DNA from: Azospirillaceae bacterium
GTDB taxonomy: Bacteria > Pseudomonadota > Alphaproteobacteria > Azospirillales > Azospirillaceae
Assembly: GCA_028283825.1 (NCBI GenBank)
Contig: JAPWJW010000001.1
Coordinates: 1,674,001-1,738,000 of the forward strand
Length of the DNA: 64,000 bases
Direction: 5' to 3'
Shown here: positions 15,061 through 36,895 of the stretch, in pieces
Position numbering within the stretch: the stretch's first letter is position 1
Layout: the number at the start of each line of letters is the position of its first letter
The notes under the pieces: generated by a model
The model's database searches: none
The model's input: the letters and a program-made list of their open reading frames with translations, nothing else
What the model was told of the DNA's origin: nothing
Program-made: the position numbers and the translations under genes

Positions 15061-15752
15061 TGACTGTCAAGATGGCATTCATGACAACCAAGACCCCACG
15101 GGCGGCGCGGCGCGGCGACGCGCTCTCAAAAGAACGTATCGTCGAGGCCGCGATCCATATCCTGGACACGGGCGGTGAAGACGCGCTGACCTTCCGCGCG
15201 CTGGCGGCCCGCCTGGCGACCGGAAGCGGGGCGATCTACTGGCATGTCGCCGACAAGGACGATCTGCTGGCGGCAACCACCAACCACGTCATCGACCGGG
15301 TCATGGCCGGCGTGGTCGACGATGCGGCACCGCGCCAGGCCATCCGCGCCATTGCGCTTGGACTGTTCGACGCCATCGACGCGCACCCGTGGGTGGGCAC
15401 CCAGCTACACCGGGCGCCGTGGCAGTCGGCCATGCTGCAGATTTTCGAAAGCATCGGCGGACGCCTCCCGGCACTGGGCGTGCCGGCGTCGGCGCAGTTC
15501 AACTGCGCCTCCGCCCTGCTGAACTATATCCTGGGCGTGGGCGCGCAAAACGCCGCGAACGCCCGCCTTGTCCCCCCCGGGACGGATCGGTCGGCCTTCC
15601 TGGCGGCCGTCACCGACCGTTGGATGCAACTCGCCCCCGGGGAATATCCGTTCGTGCGCCAGGTGGCGACGCAACTGCGCGATCATGACGACCGCGCGCA
15701 GTTCCTGGCCGGCGTCGACCTGATCCTGGCCGGCCTGGAAACCCTGCGGTAG
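15060..15752 (+). CDS. TetR-family repressor
   Basis: Predicted ligand-responsive repressor of the divergent monooxygenase gene. The 230-residue protein has an N-terminal HTH of TetR type: KERIVEAAIHILDTGGEDAL, then FRALAARLATGSGAIYWHV, and the usual helix 4 (DKDDLL). The C-terminal ligand-binding region is helical. Several starts are possible (15060, 15072, 15081); none has a strong ribosome-binding site, and 15081 (MTTKTPRAARRG) is a good alternative. The twin palindromes just upstream are its likely operators. Its 3' end is followed within five bases by intergenic repeat copy A. Confidence 0.85.
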   Translation: MTVKMAFMTTKTPRAARRGDALSKERIVEAAIHILDTGGEDALTFRALAARLATGSGAIYWHVADKDDLLAATTNHVIDRVMAGVVDDAAPRQAIRAIALGLFDAIDAHPWVGTQLHRAPWQSAMLQIFESIGGRLPALGVPASAQFNCASALLNYILGVGAQNAANARLVPPGTDRSAFLAAVTDRWMQLAPGEYPFVRQVATQLRDHDDRAQFLAGVDLILAGLETLR

Positions 15753-15756
15753 GCCG

Positions 15757-15886
15757 CCCCTCAGTCGCCGGGCGCGACCATCCGGTCGCTTGGGCTTCCT
15801 CAGTTTCCGGTCCACTTCGTTCCCCAGAAACTTCCGGCGGACGCGGTCGCGTCCTACAGCGGCAGATTCATAGTCTCGTGCCGCTG
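15757..15886 (+). repeat. Four-hairpin intergenic repeat, copy A
   Basis: Member of a four-copy family. Hairpin 1: GCGACC-ATCC-GGTCGC at 15774-15789. Hairpin 2: GTTTC at 15803-15807 with GAAAC at 15827-15831. Hairpin 3: GGACGC-GGTC-GCGTCC at 15839-15854. Hairpin 4: CAGCGGCA at 15857-15864 with TGCCGCTG at 15879-15886. It starts five bases after the tetR stop and ends three bases before the stop of the convergent small gene. Confidence 0.85.
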
Positions 15887-15889
15887 GCA

Positions 15890-16120
15890 TTACCGGCTGT
15901 GATGGCCCGGTGAGTCAGGGCGCTTCTTCTCCGCCCCATGGTGGCCGTCTTTCTTCTCCCCGGCCTCTTCCTTGGCCTTGGGCGCCTCATGGGGAATGGG
16001 CGGGAAGATGTCCGGCGTGGGGGACCGCGCCTCCTCGATGGCCTCCACCACCTCTTCCAGGATGATGTTGCCCAGGATGCTGCCTTCATCCTTGTGGGTC
16101 TTGGTGGGCTTGGTGCTCAT
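15890..16120 (-). CDS. Small charged hypothetical protein
   Basis: Function unknown. A 76-residue, highly charged protein: an N-terminal helical part (GSILGNIILEEVVEAIEEA), a Pro-rich middle (TPDIFPPIPHEAP), and a Lys/Glu/His-rich tail. No signal peptide or membrane segment. The start at 16120 is supported by GAGGAGG a few bases upstream, a stronger ribosome-binding site than most genes here, so I take it as real. It lies downstream of plsY on the same strand, separated by a GGGGCC/GGCCCC inverted repeat. It ends against repeat copy A. Confidence 0.65.
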   Translation of the reverse strand: MSTKPTKTHKDEGSILGNIILEEVVEAIEEARSPTPDIFPPIPHEAPKAKEEAGEKKDGHHGAEKKRPDSPGHHSR

Positions 16121-19645: not shown

Positions 19646-20764
19646 ATGCCACCCACCCACCCGAATACCGGCGCCCCGACGCACCGTCCTCCCCTGGAAC
19701 CGCCGCGCGCCGATGGCGTGTCGCTGAAGCGCGGCGTGGACGATGCCGACGCCTGGTCGGATGAGACCGACGCCCTGCACCTGCTGCCGCTCAACGTCCT
19801 GCCGCTGGCCACCAGCGGGCTGAAGCGGGCGCGGCTGGTGAAGACGGCGCGCCTGGAAACGATGGTGGAGCTGTTCCGCGACGCCCGCGCCGGCGCCGGC
19901 CTGATCCAGATCGAAGGGCTGGGCCGGGAATTCGCGGCCGACAAGGCGCAGTTGGACCAGGACATCGCCCTGCTGCTGCGCCTGGGCCGCGCCGGCTCGT
20001 TCGACGTCTATTCCCTGCGCATCGAGCTGCGCGCCCTGGGCATTCCGGTGGATGAGCACCAGCACCTGGTGCTGTCGCCGGAAAAGCAGGAGGAACTGAC
20101 CTTTTACATGCAGGGCTTCACCCGCCCGCTGCTGCGCCGCGTCTATGGCGAGCAAGCTGGCAAGGTGGAGAACATGGGCGACCTGACCGCCCTGCTGTCC
20201 AACCCGGATCGGGCGGAGACGCTGGCCAATCTGCGCCACATCGCCGGGCGCCTGGGCCTGCAACTGGCGGCCATCCCGGAATTCCTGGCGCAGTACGGCG
20301 ACATCTTCCTGTCGGTCGCCTATTTCCGCAGCTGCCGCGACGGGGCCGACCTGTTGATGACGGAGGTGCGGCGCTGGCTGCTGGACCTCAAGCGGTCCTC
20401 CCTCATCCAAGCCGACAATGCCGCCCAGCGCCTGATCACCATGGTGGGCGCCAGCCTGGACACCATCATGACCCAGCTGGACGGCTGCTTCCGCAGCTTC
20501 GACCGCATGACCAACCAGCTGTGGGACGACATGACGGCCGAGGGTTTCCAGGCCATGCGGCGGGAGATCGAGGCCCACCACACCGGCGTCGGCACCCTGT
20601 GCTGCGGCCTGGCGGTGAAGCTGGGCGGCTGGAAACGCGCCTTCCCCAACGCCGCCAAGGGCGCGCCGGGGCAAAAGCTGGACTGGCTGCGGCAGGAGAT
20701 GGTGCCGGGCCTGGCCGAGCTGGTGGAGGTGGGGATCGGCGCCAACAAGCCCTCCCGGGCTTAA
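19646..20764 (+). CDS. Conserved-looking hypothetical protein
   Basis: I do not recognise this 372-residue protein. It has no signal peptide and no clear membrane segment. Predicted character: a Pro-rich, poorly ordered N-terminus (1-40), then mostly helical sequence with regular Leu/Arg patterns (LETMVELFRDARAGAGLIQI; IALLLRLGRAGSFDVYSLRI), and a C-terminal helical region with a CC pair (GVGTLCCGLAVKLGG). Codon use matches the neighbours and GAGGGG precedes the start, so it is a real gene. Its stop codon is followed at once by repeat copy B. Confidence 0.7.
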   Translation: MPPTHPNTGAPTHRPPLEPPRADGVSLKRGVDDADAWSDETDALHLLPLNVLPLATSGLKRARLVKTARLETMVELFRDARAGAGLIQIEGLGREFAADKAQLDQDIALLLRLGRAGSFDVYSLRIELRALGIPVDEHQHLVLSPEKQEELTFYMQGFTRPLLRRVYGEQAGKVENMGDLTALLSNPDRAETLANLRHIAGRLGLQLAAIPEFLAQYGDIFLSVAYFRSCRDGADLLMTEVRRWLLDLKRSSLIQADNAAQRLITMVGASLDTIMTQLDGCFRSFDRMTNQLWDDMTAEGFQAMRREIEAHHTGVGTLCCGLAVKLGGWKRAFPNAAKGAPGQKLDWLRQEMVPGLAELVEVGIGANKPSRA

Positions 20765-20766
20765 TG

Positions 20767-20898
20767 CCCCCTCAAACGCCGGACGTCGCCGTCCGGCGAC
20801 TTGGCTGATCCTCGGTTTCCAGTCCGCTCACGTTCCCCGGAAACCTCCGGCGACCCCAGTCGGGGCCTACGGAGGCATGGTATGAATTCCATGCCTCC
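20767..20898 (+). repeat. Four-hairpin intergenic repeat, copy B
   Basis: Hairpin 1: GTCGCC-GTCC-GGCGAC at 20785-20800. Hairpin 2: GGTTTCC at 20814-20820 with GGAAACC at 20839-20845. Hairpin 3: CCCC-AGTC-GGGG at 20854-20865. Hairpin 4: GGAGGCATGG at 20871-20880 with CCATGCCTCC at 20889-20898. Stems 1, 3 and 4 differ from the other copies yet remain paired. It lies two bases after the upstream stop and ten before the stop of convergent gor. Confidence 0.87.
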
Positions 20899-20907
20899 GC
20901 CCACGCA

Positions 20908-23375: not shown

Positions 23376-24473
23376 ATGAAGGGGGCCCTGGCGGCCCTGG
23401 CGCTGACGACGGCCACCATGGCCACCGGTGCGGCCTGGGCCGATATCAAGGTGGGCCTGGCCGGCCCCCTGACGGGGCCCAACGCCGTGGTGGGCGAGCA
23501 GATGCGCCGGGGCACCGAACAGGCCATCGCCGACATCAACGCCAAGGGTGGCGTGCTGGGTGAGAAGCTGGTGCTGTCCAAGGGCGACGACGCCAGCAAC
23601 CCCAGCCAGGGCGTGGCCGTCGCCAACAAGCTGGTGACCGAGGGCGTGGTGGCGGTGTTCGGCCACTACAACTCCGCCGTCTCCATCGCCGCCGCCAAGG
23701 TCTATGCCGAGGAAGGCGTCATCCAGATCTCCCCCAACTCCACCAACCCGCGCCTGACGGAGATGGGCTACACGACGACATTCCGCACCTGCGGCCGCGA
23801 CGACCAGCAGGGCCAGGTGGCGGCGGCCTACATCGCGCGTGTCTTCCCCAACGCCCGCATCGCCATCGTCCAGGACCAGACCACCTACGGCAAGGGCCTG
23901 GCCGACGCCACCCGCGACGCCCTGAACAAGCTGGGCAAGAAGGAAATACTGTATGAGGCGGTGACCGTGGGCGACCGCGACATGTCCGCCATCATCACCC
24001 GCATGAAGGACGCGCAGATCGACCTGGTGTTCTTCGGCGGCGTGCATACCGAGGGCGGGCTGCTGGTGCGCCAGATGGCGGACAAGGGCCTGAAGGCCCA
24101 GTTCGTCGGCGGCGACGGCATCATCTCCAACGAGTTCTGGGGCATCACCGGACCCAGCGGCAACGGCGTGCTGAACACCTTCGGCCCCGACTACCGCCTG
24201 CGCCCGCAGGCCGCCGACGTGGTGAAGAAGTTCCGCGACGGCGGGTACGAGCCCGAGGCCTACACGCTTTATTCCTACGCCGCCGTCCAGGCCTGGGCCC
24301 AGGCCGCGACCGAGGCCAAGACCACGTCGCCCGACAAGGTGGCGGCCGTCCTGCACAAATCCACCTTCCAGACTGTGATCGGCCCCCTGGCCTTCGATGC
24401 AAAAGGAGATCGCACCACTGCCGATTACACAGTTTACCAGTGGCGCGACGGGTCTTATACCGAGGTCAAATAG
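23376..24473 (+). CDS. LivJ-like branched-chain amino-acid binding protein 1
   Basis: Periplasmic component of a branched-chain amino-acid (HAAT-type) ABC importer. The 365-residue protein has a signal peptide (ALAALALTTATMATGAAWA), the opening DIKVGLAGPLTGPNAVVGEQ, a repeated-lobe Leu/Ile/Val-binding fold, and the stretch FRTCGRDDQQGQVAA. The start at 23376 or the GTG one codon earlier cannot be separated. No permease or ATPase genes are next to it. A close paralogue follows 39 bases downstream. Confidence 0.88.
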   Translation: MKGALAALALTTATMATGAAWADIKVGLAGPLTGPNAVVGEQMRRGTEQAIADINAKGGVLGEKLVLSKGDDASNPSQGVAVANKLVTEGVVAVFGHYNSAVSIAAAKVYAEEGVIQISPNSTNPRLTEMGYTTTFRTCGRDDQQGQVAAAYIARVFPNARIAIVQDQTTYGKGLADATRDALNKLGKKEILYEAVTVGDRDMSAIITRMKDAQIDLVFFGGVHTEGGLLVRQMADKGLKAQFVGGDGIISNEFWGITGPSGNGVLNTFGPDYRLRPQAADVVKKFRDGGYEPEAYTLYSYAAVQAWAQAATEAKTTSPDKVAAVLHKSTFQTVIGPLAFDAKGDRTTADYTVYQWRDGSYTEVK

Positions 24474-24512
24474 TGTGAATTAGACACACGTCGTTTCAGG
24501 AACCACAGTTCG

Positions 24513-25625
24513 ATGCGCGTATCATCCCTCGCCCGTGCCGCCCTTCTCACCTTGCCCTTGCTGTCGATCAGCCTGCCAGCACTGGCGGACATCAAGATCG
24601 GCGTGGGGGTGCCCTTGAGCGGGCGGCTGGCGGCGGTGGGCACGCAGCTGCGCCGGGGTGCGGACCAGGCCGTCCACGACATCAACGCCAAGGGCGGCGT
24701 CCTGGGGCAGAAGCTGGTGGTGGACGCGGTGGATGATGGCGGTGAACCCACCCAGGCCGTCGCCGCCGCCAACCGCCTGGTGACGGACAAGGTCGCCATG
24801 GTCATGGGCCACATGACCACCGGCACCACCATGCCGGCAGCCCAGGTCTATGCCGATGAAGGCATGATCGTCATCACCCCCAGTTCCACCAGCCCGGAAC
24901 TGACCGCCCAGGGCTGGGACACGCTGTTCCGCACCTGCGGCCGCGACGACCAGCAGGGCCTGGTGATCGGCACGTACCTGGCCAACCACTACAAGACCGG
25001 CAAGATCGCCGTGGTTGATGACCAGACCACCTATGGCAAGGGCCTGGCCGACGCCGTGCGCGCCACCCTGAAGGCGCGCGGCGTGCCGGTGGCGCTGAAC
25101 GGCGTACTGACGGCGGGTGAGAAGGACTTCAGCAGCATGGTCACCCGCCTGAAGTCGGCGGACGTGGACGCCGTGTTCTACGGCGGCCTGTACCCGGAGG
25201 CGGGATTGCTGGTGCGCCAGTCACGCACCGCCGGGCTGAAGGCCGCCTTCCTGGCCGGCGACACGCTGGCGAGCGATGAGTTCTGGACCACCGCCGGCAC
25301 CATGGGCGAAGGCGTCATGATGGCCTACAACGCCGACGTCCGGCAGAGCCCCGCCGCCAAGGAGGCGCTGGAAGGCTTCCGCAAGAACGGCGGCGAGCCC
25401 AATATCTTCTCCCTCTACGCCTATGCCGCCGTGCAGGTCTGGGCGGAGGCCGCCGCCAAGGCCGGCAGCACCGATCCCAGGAAGGTGGCGGCCGTCCTGC
25501 ACAGCGGCCAGGAATTCCCCACCGCCGTCGGCACCGTCTCCTACGACGCCAAGGGCGACCGCAAGCAGAACGACTACGTCATCTACAGCTGGCACGACGG
25601 CGCCTACGCGCCGCTGGCGAAGTAG
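24513..25625 (+). CDS. LivJ-like branched-chain amino-acid binding protein 2
   Basis: Paralogue of the preceding gene: 370 residues with signal peptide (LARAALLTLPLLSISLPALA), DIKIGVGVPLSGRLAAVGTQ, and the same FRTCGRDDQQG and DDQTTYGKGLADA segments. The tandem pair arose by duplication and then diverged, especially in the signal peptide and the ligand-cleft region after the GG/GGLYPEAGLLVRQ segment. It may widen substrate range for one transporter encoded elsewhere. A strong terminator follows 20 bases after the stop. Confidence 0.88.
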   Translation: MRVSSLARAALLTLPLLSISLPALADIKIGVGVPLSGRLAAVGTQLRRGADQAVHDINAKGGVLGQKLVVDAVDDGGEPTQAVAAANRLVTDKVAMVMGHMTTGTTMPAAQVYADEGMIVITPSSTSPELTAQGWDTLFRTCGRDDQQGLVIGTYLANHYKTGKIAVVDDQTTYGKGLADAVRATLKARGVPVALNGVLTAGEKDFSSMVTRLKSADVDAVFYGGLYPEAGLLVRQSRTAGLKAAFLAGDTLASDEFWTTAGTMGEGVMMAYNADVRQSPAAKEALEGFRKNGGEPNIFSLYAYAAVQVWAEAAAKAGSTDPRKVAAVLHSGQEFPTAVGTVSYDAKGDRKQNDYVIYSWHDGAYAPLAK

Positions 25626-27059: not shown

Positions 27060-27087
27060 GGCATTTGAGCGTGACCGCTCAAATGCC
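27060..27087 (+). terminator. Hairpin after the HEAT gene
   Basis: Perfect 12-bp arms (27060-27071 and 27076-27087, GGCATTTGAGCG and its complement) with loop TGAC. It lies 14 bases after the stop and immediately before repeat copy C. No T tract. Confidence 0.55.
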
Positions 27088-27089
27088 GG

Positions 27090-27220
27090 CCCTCAATCGC
27101 CCGGGTGCCAGCATCCGCTGACTTGGCTGATCCTCGCGTTTCAGTCCGCTGACGCTCCCCAAAACGCTCCGGCGGCTGCAGTCGCAGCCTACAGCGGCAC
27201 GAATCAAAATTTCGTGCCGC
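27090..27220 (+). repeat. Four-hairpin intergenic repeat, copy C
   Basis: Hairpin 1: GCCAGC-ATCC-GCTGAC at 27107-27122 (one mismatch). Hairpin 2: GCGTTT at 27136-27141 with AAACGC at 27162-27167. Hairpin 3: GGCTGC-AGTC-GCAGCC at 27174-27189. Hairpin 4: GCGGCACGAA at 27194-27203 with TTCGTGCCGC at 27211-27220. Stems 2 and 3 show paired base changes against copies A and D. It ends six bases before the scpB stop. Confidence 0.87.
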
Positions 27221-27225
27221 CGATG

Positions 27226-27882
27226 TTACTCATCGACGCTGTCCTCCACCGCGCGCGGCAGGGCGGCATCGTCGCCGCGCGAGAACAGGGTGGTGACGGC
27301 GGGGCGGGCGTCCAGCAATCCTGCGGCGCGCAGGTCATCCACGCCCGGCAGGTCGCGCAACGATTCCAAACCGAAATGATCCAGGAAAGCCGGGGTGGTC
27401 AGCCAGGTCAGCGGCCGGCCCGGCGTCTCCCGCCGGCGGCCCGGCTTGATCCAGCCGGCTTCCATCAGGATGTCCAGCGTGCCCTTGCTGGTGGCGACAC
27501 CACGGATGCTTTCGATCTCCGCCCGGGTCACCGGCTGGTGATAGGCGATGATGGACAGCGTCTCCACCGCCGCGCGCGACAGACGGGACGACACCTCCGT
27601 CTCCCGCTGCAACAGGGGCGCCAGGTCGGCCGCGGTGCGGAAGGCCCAGCGGCCGGAGGCCGCCACCAGGTGCACGCCGCGCGGGCTGTAGTGCGCCTGC
27701 AATTCCGCCAGCAGGCCTCGCACGTCGGCCCCGGTCCCCAGGCGGGCCTGCAATGCCGCCTCCTCCACCGGCTCGGCCGAGGCGAACAGCACGGCCTCCA
27801 CCAGGCGCAGCTGTTCGGCGTGGCGGTCGAAGCCCTCCAGTTCCGGCTGCAGCATTTCCGGGGACAGGGTCTCGGTACTCAT
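27226..27882 (-). CDS. scpB: Segregation and condensation protein B
   Basis: Winged-helix kleisin-interacting subunit of the SMC-ScpAB condensin complex, needed for chromosome compaction and segregation. The 218-residue protein has the typical opening LRLVEAVLFASAEPVEEAAL, the core LSRAAVETLSIIAYHQPVTRAEIE and RGVATSKGTLDILMEAGWI. It overlaps scpA by four bases (ATGA). In many alphaproteobacteria tatABC follows; here the gene is followed by repeat copy C and an unrelated convergent gene. Confidence 0.95.
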   Translation of the reverse strand: MSTETLSPEMLQPELEGFDRHAEQLRLVEAVLFASAEPVEEAALQARLGTGADVRGLLAELQAHYSPRGVHLVAASGRWAFRTAADLAPLLQRETEVSSRLSRAAVETLSIIAYHQPVTRAEIESIRGVATSKGTLDILMEAGWIKPGRRRETPGRPLTWLTTPAFLDHFGLESLRDLPGVDDLRAAGLLDARPAVTTLFSRGDDAALPRAVEDSVDE

Positions 27883-35547: not shown

Positions 35548-35922
35548 ATGACCGACATCGCCGTGACCGAACTCGCCCCCGTCGGAGCCCCGCCCCGGGC
35601 CATGAGCCTCAGCGCCAGCGCCGCCAAGCGTGTGCGCAAGCTGGCGGAGATGGAGGGCGGGCCCCAATACATGATGCGCCTATCGGTGTCGGGCGGCGGC
35701 TGCTCCGGTTTCCAGTACGGCTTCAGCTTCGATGCCGCCACCACGGATGAGGACCACGTGTTCGAGCGCGATGGCGCCCGGCTGGTGGTGGACGACACCT
35801 CGCTGGACCTGCTGGCCGGCGCCGAGGTCGATTTCGTCGAGGAACTGGCCGGGTCGTACTTCAAGGTCAACAACCCCAATGCCGGTTCCTCCTGCGGCTG
35901 CGGGCAGAGTTTTTCCCTTTAA
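35548..35922 (+). CDS. erpA: A-type iron-sulfur cluster carrier (ErpA-like)
   Basis: Carries and delivers Fe-S clusters to target enzymes. The 124-residue protein has the three conserved cysteines C52 (GGGCSGFQYGF), C116 and C118 (SSCGCGQSF). The N-terminus MTDIAVTELAPVGAPP precedes the core at about residue 20. Separation of ErpA, IscA and SufA by sequence alone is uncertain; the dgt-argS neighbourhood favours ErpA. Repeat copy D follows five bases after the stop. Confidence 0.92.
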   Translation: MTDIAVTELAPVGAPPRAMSLSASAAKRVRKLAEMEGGPQYMMRLSVSGGGCSGFQYGFSFDAATTDEDHVFERDGARLVVDDTSLDLLAGAEVDFVEELAGSYFKVNNPNAGSSCGCGQSFSL

Positions 35923-35927
35923 GTTTT

Positions 35928-36047
35928 CCCTCAGACGCCGGGCGCCCGCATCCGCGGGCTAGGCTTCCTCAGTTTCCAGTCCGCTACGCTCCCCGGAAAC
36001 TTCCGCCGGACGCAGTCGCGTCCTACAGCGGCATCGGTATGCCGCTG
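35928..36047 (+). repeat. Four-hairpin intergenic repeat, copy D
   Basis: Hairpin 1: GCCCGC-ATCC-GCGGGC at 35944-35959. Hairpin 2: AGTTTCC at 35971-35977 with GGAAACT at 35995-36001. Hairpin 3: GGACGC-AGTC-GCGTCC at 36008-36023. Hairpin 4: CAGCGGCAT at 36026-36034 with ATGCCGCTG at 36039-36047. All four stems are perfect, making this the best-formed copy. It is the only copy followed by a gene on the same strand (xthA). Confidence 0.9.
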
Positions 36048-36121
36048 ATTACGGAGACTTCTCGCCTTGGCCCGGGCGAGGCTCTAAGGTGCGGACAAAT
36101 CCGCCTTAAGAGAGCTTCCCC

Positions 36122-36895
36122 ATGCGCATCGCCACCTGGAACGTGAACTCGGTCAAAGCCCGCCTGGCCAACGTGACCGGGTGGCTGGACAGCGCCAAGC
36201 CGGACGTCGTGCTGTTCCAGGAGATCAAGTGCGAGACGGCGGCCTTCCCGCTGCAGGCCTTCCAGGATATGGGCTATCACTGCGCCGTGGTGGGGCAGAA
36301 GGCCTATAACGGCGTCGCCCTGCTGTCGCGTGAGGAACCCCGGGACGTCATCACCCGCCTGCCCGGCGAGGATGAGGACGAACAGTCCCGCTATGTCGAG
36401 GCGACCGTGGCCGGCGTGCGCATCGCCAGCCTGTACCTGCCCAACGGCAACCCGGTGGGCACGGAGAAATATCCCTATAAGCTGCGCTGGATGGACCGGC
36501 TGAAGGCCCATGCCGCCGACCTGCTGGCGCAGCAGGTGCCGTTCGTGCTGGGCGGCGACTACAACGTCATCCCCGAGGCGCGCGATGTCTACGACCCCGC
36601 CGCCTGGATGACCGACGCCCTGTTCCGCCCCGAGACCCGCGCCAAGTTCCGCGAGATCACCCATTTGGGCCTGACGGAGGCCTTCCGCGCCGTCCACCCC
36701 GATGCCGAGCGCGCCTACAGCTTCTGGGACTATCAGGCCGGCGCCTGGCCCCGCGACATGGGCCTGCGCATCGACCACTTCCTGCTGTCCCCGCAAGCGG
36801 CCGACCGCCTGGCCGGTTGCAGCATCGACAAGGGGCCGCGCGGCCAGGAAAAGGCGTCGGACCACACGCCGGTGATCCTGGAACTGGCGGACTGA
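36122..36895 (+). CDS. xthA: Exodeoxyribonuclease III
   Basis: Endonuclease/exonuclease/phosphatase-fold AP endonuclease and 3'-5' exonuclease of base-excision repair. The 257-residue protein has RIATWNVNSVKARL, VVLFQEIKCE (metal Glu), LGGDYNVIPEARDVYD (catalytic Asp/Asn) and the C-terminal SDHTPVILEL catalytic His. The start at 36122 follows GAGAGCTT and gives the conserved MRIATWN. It lies 199 bases after erpA with repeat copy D between. Confidence 0.96.
   Translation: MRIATWNVNSVKARLANVTGWLDSAKPDVVLFQEIKCETAAFPLQAFQDMGYHCAVVGQKAYNGVALLSREEPRDVITRLPGEDEDEQSRYVEATVAGVRIASLYLPNGNPVGTEKYPYKLRWMDRLKAHAADLLAQQVPFVLGGDYNVIPEARDVYDPAAWMTDALFRPETRAKFREITHLGLTEAFRAVHPDAERAYSFWDYQAGAWPRDMGLRIDHFLLSPQAADRLAGCSIDKGPRGQEKASDHTPVILELAD

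Follow-up and report, generated by a model that had tools for sequence, protein, structure and literature searches.

The four hairpin-rich repeats found in the window, the whole 64-kb stretch of DNA that was analysed, probably belong to a large family of mobile but non-autonomous repeats that behave like REP/BIME elements and act as DNA hairpins. A covariance model (R1, 35 pairs), made from a profile of related copies and searched with cmsearch, recovered exactly four copies in the window (A, 15758-15890; B, 20769-20903; C, 27090-27226; D, 35928-36051) and no fifth. These are the four sites that an earlier note on this DNA had listed, except that the CCCTCA start of copy A lies at 15758 and not at 15757. 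Read on the plus strand, a unit consists of three to five hairpins over about 107-190 bp, in the order optional hairpin 0 (hp0), CCCTCA, hp1, GGCT..CCTC, hp2, TCCGGCG, hp3, CCTAC, hp4. The order from CCCTCA to hp4, which the earlier note had read from the sequence, is present in all four window copies, and its hp1 loop ATCC (GTCC in copy B) and hp3 loop AGTC (GGTC in copy A) are correct for them. It had missed three features: an outer helix of 3 bp in hp1, whose GCC/GGC covaries with GGC/GCC; a small inner helix in hp2, where GC/GC covaries with AC/GT; and hp0, which lies upstream of CCCTCA (27060-27087 in copy C). Across the family the inner stem of hp1 is 6 bp long and G-C rich with an ATCC loop, hp2 has 7 bp around TTT/AAA, hp3 has a 6-bp stem with an NGTC loop, hp4 reaches up to 11 bp, and hp0 is exemplified by GGCATTTGAGC...GCTCAAATGCC.

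Copy D (35928-36047, plus strand; cmsearch 35928-36051, 132.9 bits) begins 5 bp past the stop codon (35920-35922) of an erpA-like, iron-sulphur-biosynthesis gene and ends before an exonuclease-III-like (xth-like) gene that starts at 36122; by Pfam, these neighbours are PF01521 and PF03372 respectively. Its CCCTCA 5' tag (35928-35933), of which CCTCA is invariant in alignment A1, is followed by hp1 (35937-35964; outer GCC/GGC, inner GCCCGC-ATCC-GCGGGC), hp2 (35971-36001; AGTTTCC/GGAAACT) and hp3 (36008-36023; GGACGC-AGTC-GCGTCC), which are defined by sequence and covariation, and then by hp4 (36026-36047; CAGCGGCAT/ATGCCGCTG), which is defined by sequence and by double changes with no significant single pair. 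The other three copies, also on the plus strand, lie in convergent gaps. Copies A (15758-15890) and B (20769-20903) fill theirs, between stop codons at 15752 and 15890 and at 20764 and 20908, and copy C extends over 27060-27226, with hp0 (27060-27070 paired to 27077-27087) ahead of hp1 to hp4 (27090-27226). Elsewhere in the window, at 23376-25625, two adjacent genes that share about 70% DNA identity over 300 nt look like tandem duplicates.

In a detailed sample of 1.258 Mb of the 7.16-Mb genome, from the same replicon (G000:C1 1-800000 and 1400001-1858000), the covariance model found 76 copies at E<1e-3, which extrapolates to about 430 copies per genome. Scaling by an exact hp1 pattern, which matches 159 times in the genome when both strands are counted (the reversed control pattern never does) and 18 times in the sample, leads to about 670. 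Two subtypes were observed: a TCCTCA form, often lacking hp4 and at times arranged in tandem (period about 104 bp), and one that carries another hp2. One three-element tandem array with this period lies at L056 17977-18315 (G000:C1:518107-518315), and in a similar two-copy tandem at G000:C1:1760212-1760324 a GTTTTTCTGT leader forms part of the repeat unit. The family is carried by all seven genomes of the host genus. Named genomes bearing the full-length form are Nitrospirillum, and by inference from such sequence matches the host genus, with its seven repeat-carrying genomes, would be Nitrospirillum as well.

Pairing in the hairpins persists while the stem sequences change. In an alignment of the 76 copies, 95.9% of the pair cells are paired (75.5% in shuffles) and 433 cells are changed on both sides (110 in shuffles). 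The covariation score is 0.427, compared with 0.115 after shuffling and at most 0.084 in controls with slid partners. More than 30 distinct hp1 stem/loop combinations occur among these copies, nearly all of them perfectly paired. Fitting the alignment to the structure makes these values somewhat favourable; a plain MAFFT alignment gives the same covarying pairs. Covariation above phylogenetic expectation was assessed with a tree-aware null in which the substitutions of each column are re-thrown on the inferred tree, using our own R-scape-style implementation and not R-scape. Eleven of the 35 proposed pairs were significant (E<0.05), each scoring above every null pair, and none of the 7,591 other pairs, with no significant column-pair covariation across different hairpins. 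All eleven lie in hp1, hp2 and hp3. For hp4, double changes at 11 of 11 model pairs are suggestive only, as no single pair is significant. The proposal that fixed loops with covarying stems indicate a selected structure is thus borne out, in the sense that the hairpins are selected or actively maintained.

The gap between the erpA-like and xth-like genes (site D) shows how these stems evolve. Each of the seven species of the genus has an element there, with position and sense orientation unchanged. Between species, identity is 81% at third codon positions of the xth-like gene, 86% in the unpaired core of the element and 95% in the hp3 stem. The stems of hp1 and hp2 average 60% identity and fall to 33% in pairs of species whose unpaired core is 86-90% identical. 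Stems at this site differ more than third codon positions do, yet remain paired, and loops and spacers are kept. When copies of one genome are compared, the stem of one hairpin is almost independent of the stems of the others, with at most a weak association of stem types. Given this turnover and the unlinked stems, slow point-by-point compensation is hardly enough, and the stems are probably rewritten fast, by replacement, by recombination or exchange between copies, by template switching, or through a hot spot that takes repeated insertions. The same observations, together with stem changes that are almost all from Watson-Crick to Watson-Crick pairs with few wobble intermediates, speak for a purely mutational origin of the covariation, through arm-to-arm template switching (quasipalindrome correction) or copy exchange and with no selection on structure. 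Such a process alone leaves both the spread of copies and the conservation of loops, tag and spacers across genera unexplained, and we consider it rather improbable. Occupancy of site D in seven of seven species is as compatible with a conserved function as with an insertion that is old or lies at a hot spot.

Copies are placed far from randomly. Gaps between convergent genes hold 36 of the 71 intergenic copies, tandem gaps 32 and divergent gaps 3, where 7.6, 43.3 and 20.0 are expected from the non-element intergenic length with genes called by a home-made caller (chi-square p ~2e-27). Element ends are often a few bases from stop codons, and copies without hp0 have a T-rich 5' flank. In order to compare filled and empty gaps, comparable sites were defined as own sites whose flanking genes also neighbour each other in sister species G006 or G002 (n=9); copies A and C were left out of this scoring, as the site of A is rearranged and the left gene of C has diverged. 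Eight of the nine sites are element-free in the sister species examined, and the ninth is that of copy D. At five convergent sites the gap measures 128-219 bp when filled and -4 to 42 bp when empty, and one of the five empty gaps retains a degenerate hp1 relic. The gap of copy B is a case in point, as it is 32-33 bp long and element-free in both G006 and G002. Because the sister species are without the element at eight of the nine sites, the copies are insertions. No target-site duplication is readable at the empty sites, where flank identity is about 85%. Adjacent copies in the 1.258-Mb sample are co-oriented more often than by chance (44 of 65, p=0.002). A long run of plus-strand copies spans 1.606-1.847 Mb. 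A replication-strand bias was considered and dropped, since orientation has no association with local GC skew.

The earlier note had left open whether the structure forms in RNA or as cruciform DNA. This is now partly settled: hairpins at the DNA level are favoured, and an RNA function at gene 3' ends is less likely. In the stems, with the hp2 tip excluded, G-T mismatches (34) are not commoner than A-C mismatches (45), which implies no general strand preference, and in tandem gaps 14 copies are sense and 18 antisense to transcription. These two balances and the status of the copies as insertions together favour DNA-level hairpins. The competing reading is that the stems stay paired through a role in RNA, as 3'-end exonuclease barriers on read-through transcripts or by stopping transcription that arrives from convergent genes. 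The strong bias to convergent gaps and to positions just past stop codons agrees with it, as do the retention of site D in sense orientation in all seven species and the fact that each strand, plus or minus, has a better fold than its shuffled versions (z ~ -3 to -6). The tip of hp2 points the same way. On the plus strand it has 11 C-A and one T-G combinations, and the neighbouring pair is retained as A-C in 54 copies and is G-C in eight; on the minus strand these pairs are wobble or Watson-Crick, a hint that the minus strand is the folding one there. The plus-strand excess of A-C over G-T at the hp2 tip might reflect a strand-specific molecule made of the minus strand. Against an RNA role stand, besides the unbiased orientation and the parity of G-T and A-C mismatches, the absence of most copies from sister species and the sequence beyond hp4, where T content in the next 8 nt is 28% with no T-run; nor was any terminator-like site found inside copies A-C. 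As the T-rich flank precedes hp1 and no T-run follows the last hairpin, an intrinsic terminator was rejected. On balance we regard the RNA role as unlikely and retain the reading of mobile DNA hairpins.

No mobilising enzyme was found. Eight head-to-head hp1 pairs, 0.5-4.5 kb apart, were considered as the ends of an autonomous parent element; in the one whose open reading frames were inspected, by eye (L336 9239-10402), none looked like a transposase. We propose that a putative recombinase or transposase acting in trans would recognise extruded or single-stranded hairpins by tag, loops and the geometry of the stems, and would insert them at T-rich sites behind genes. If only well-paired copies stay mobile, pairing would be maintained. 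Copies landing in promoter regions would presumably be purged by selection, and after insertion the stems might be rewritten fast by replacement, by exchange between copies or by template switching inside the palindromes.

Simpler forms of the repeat appear, from matches to the hp1 pattern (CCTCA tag, ATCC loop), to be spread patchily through the Alphaproteobacteria. Of the 385 alphaproteobacterial genomes sampled, 15 contain the pattern, and of 277 genera 12; the reversed control is found in none. Named carriers include Roseomonas, Magnetospirillum, Telmatospirillum, Novispirillum and Sphingomonads, the last with hp1 units in head-to-head pairs. Niveispirillum units read CCCTCA, hp1 with loop ATCC, GGCTTACGC, hp2 (often with an ATGG loop), hp3 and hp4, and hp3 keeps the NGTC loop here too. 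Among 117 distinct units from outside Nitrospirillum, 43 have an NGTC/NTTC hairpin within 80 nt after hp1, as compared with 7 in control DNA. A phage origin was set aside, with no match in 50,697 phage records. The hp1 pattern was also seen in 25 stretches of IMG/VR contigs. One contig classed as viral, IMGVR_UViG_2708742415_000004 (47.9 kb), holds 14 hp1 matches, many in tandem (L332, L347, L349); it may be a Niveispirillum-like chromosomal stretch rather than phage. We raise, tentatively and with some doubt, the broader idea of a class-wide alphaproteobacterial mobile DNA made of a row of different hairpins, with its identity in loops and spacers (ATCC, NGTC) and its stems rewritten in place, and moved by a kind of enzyme not yet tied to REPs.

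With hundreds of copies, seven sequenced sister species and both filled and empty sites, the family is a dense, well-covarying test case for how REP-like repeats without a RAYT are moved. Fixed loops combined with fast stem replacement at one orthologous site allow a direct test of whether selection, transposition or template switching keeps the stems paired. It also carries a warning: in the intergenic DNA of bacteria, covariation, even when strong, does not always signal a functional RNA.

The earlier note had called the family unrecognised. This holds in that neither Rfam nor the literature searched yielded a description of these repeats, but their behaviour is close to the known REP/BIME class. 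None of 4,227 Rfam models matches over the elements at its gathering threshold, nor at E<=1, and a literature search outside subscription papers found nothing on such repeats in Nitrospirillum, Niveispirillum or Sphingomonads. A sub-threshold SAM_alpha riboswitch match was seen separately at L046 15460-15534 (25.6 bits, gathering threshold 36). The bacterial MITEs (ERIC, NEMIS/Correia, RUP and enterobacterial RU) are likewise intergenic, folded and non-coding, at 70-300 bp. The present hairpins, however, stand in series and do not form one long palindrome, and clear terminal inverted repeats are absent from the CCCTCA-to-hp4 form; by eye, weakly matching ends (ATACNNGCGGCA) are seen in the hp0 form only.

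Similarity to GTAG REPs, REPINs and BIMEs (PMC2817692, PMC3116915, PMC3733652) is found in high copy number, extragenic location, multi-hairpin mosaics and mobility. On the minus strand, GTAG lies directly 5' of the hp3 hairpin GACGC-GACY-GCGTC, as it does beside GTAG REP stems, and the placement of copies is as described for GTAG and CGTC REPs (PMC3733652). The family could on these grounds consist of GTAG REPs moved by a RAYT since lost or too divergent to detect. Yet in 73 of 76 copies the G of GTAG takes part in a base pair, in contrast to the REP tag, which is described as unpaired, and different hairpins follow in fixed order instead of two inverted copies of one REP. Moreover, Y1_Tnp (PF01797) is absent from all seven genus genomes and from the five g12 (Niveispirillum-like) genomes searched, all of them repeat-bearing. 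The RAYT model NF047646 has no match in the seven genus genomes, its one match, a clear REP-associated tyrosine transposase (5e-52; L401, G034:C4:3257-3691), being in a g12 genome, G034, with few copies of the repeat. A RAYT/Y1 transposase was accordingly rejected as mobiliser, as none was found in the genus, and we think the GTAG REP reading quite improbable.

The CGTC REPs (Di Nocera, De Gregorio and Rocco 2013; PMC3733652) offer the other comparison. They are mostly alphaproteobacterial, have no known dedicated transposase, and are single palindromes of 20-40 bp with a CGTC/TGTC/CCTC tag, 8-9 bp stems starting A-T, A-T, a CCA tail, loops of 4-5 nt, alternative complementary residues in the stems and head-to-head dimers; their sites, no more than about 20 bp from the 3' end of a gene, are in gaps of the convergent or unidirectional type. 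Our repeats share the alphaproteobacterial hosts, CCTC in the tag, 4-nt loops, alternative complementary stem residues, the lack of an associated RAYT and the placement at gene 3' ends in convergent and unidirectional gaps, and their Sphingomonad relatives share the head-to-head dimers. They differ in being composites of 3-5 hairpins over ~107-190 bp and not single 20-40 bp palindromes, in the 6-bp stems of hp1 and hp3, and in lacking the A-T start and the CCA tail; the CGTC-REP pattern has no match in the 1.258-Mb sample. They bear on a question left by the 2013 survey, namely what moves REP-like repeats without a RAYT. Since the short single palindrome, A-T start and CCA tail of CGTC REPs and the RAYT of GTAG REPs were looked for and not found, we file them as a variant of the REP/BIME kind that is a member of neither family. 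The best reading is that of an uncatalogued composite REP/BIME-like repeat, REP-like in behaviour and outside the CGTC and GTAG families.
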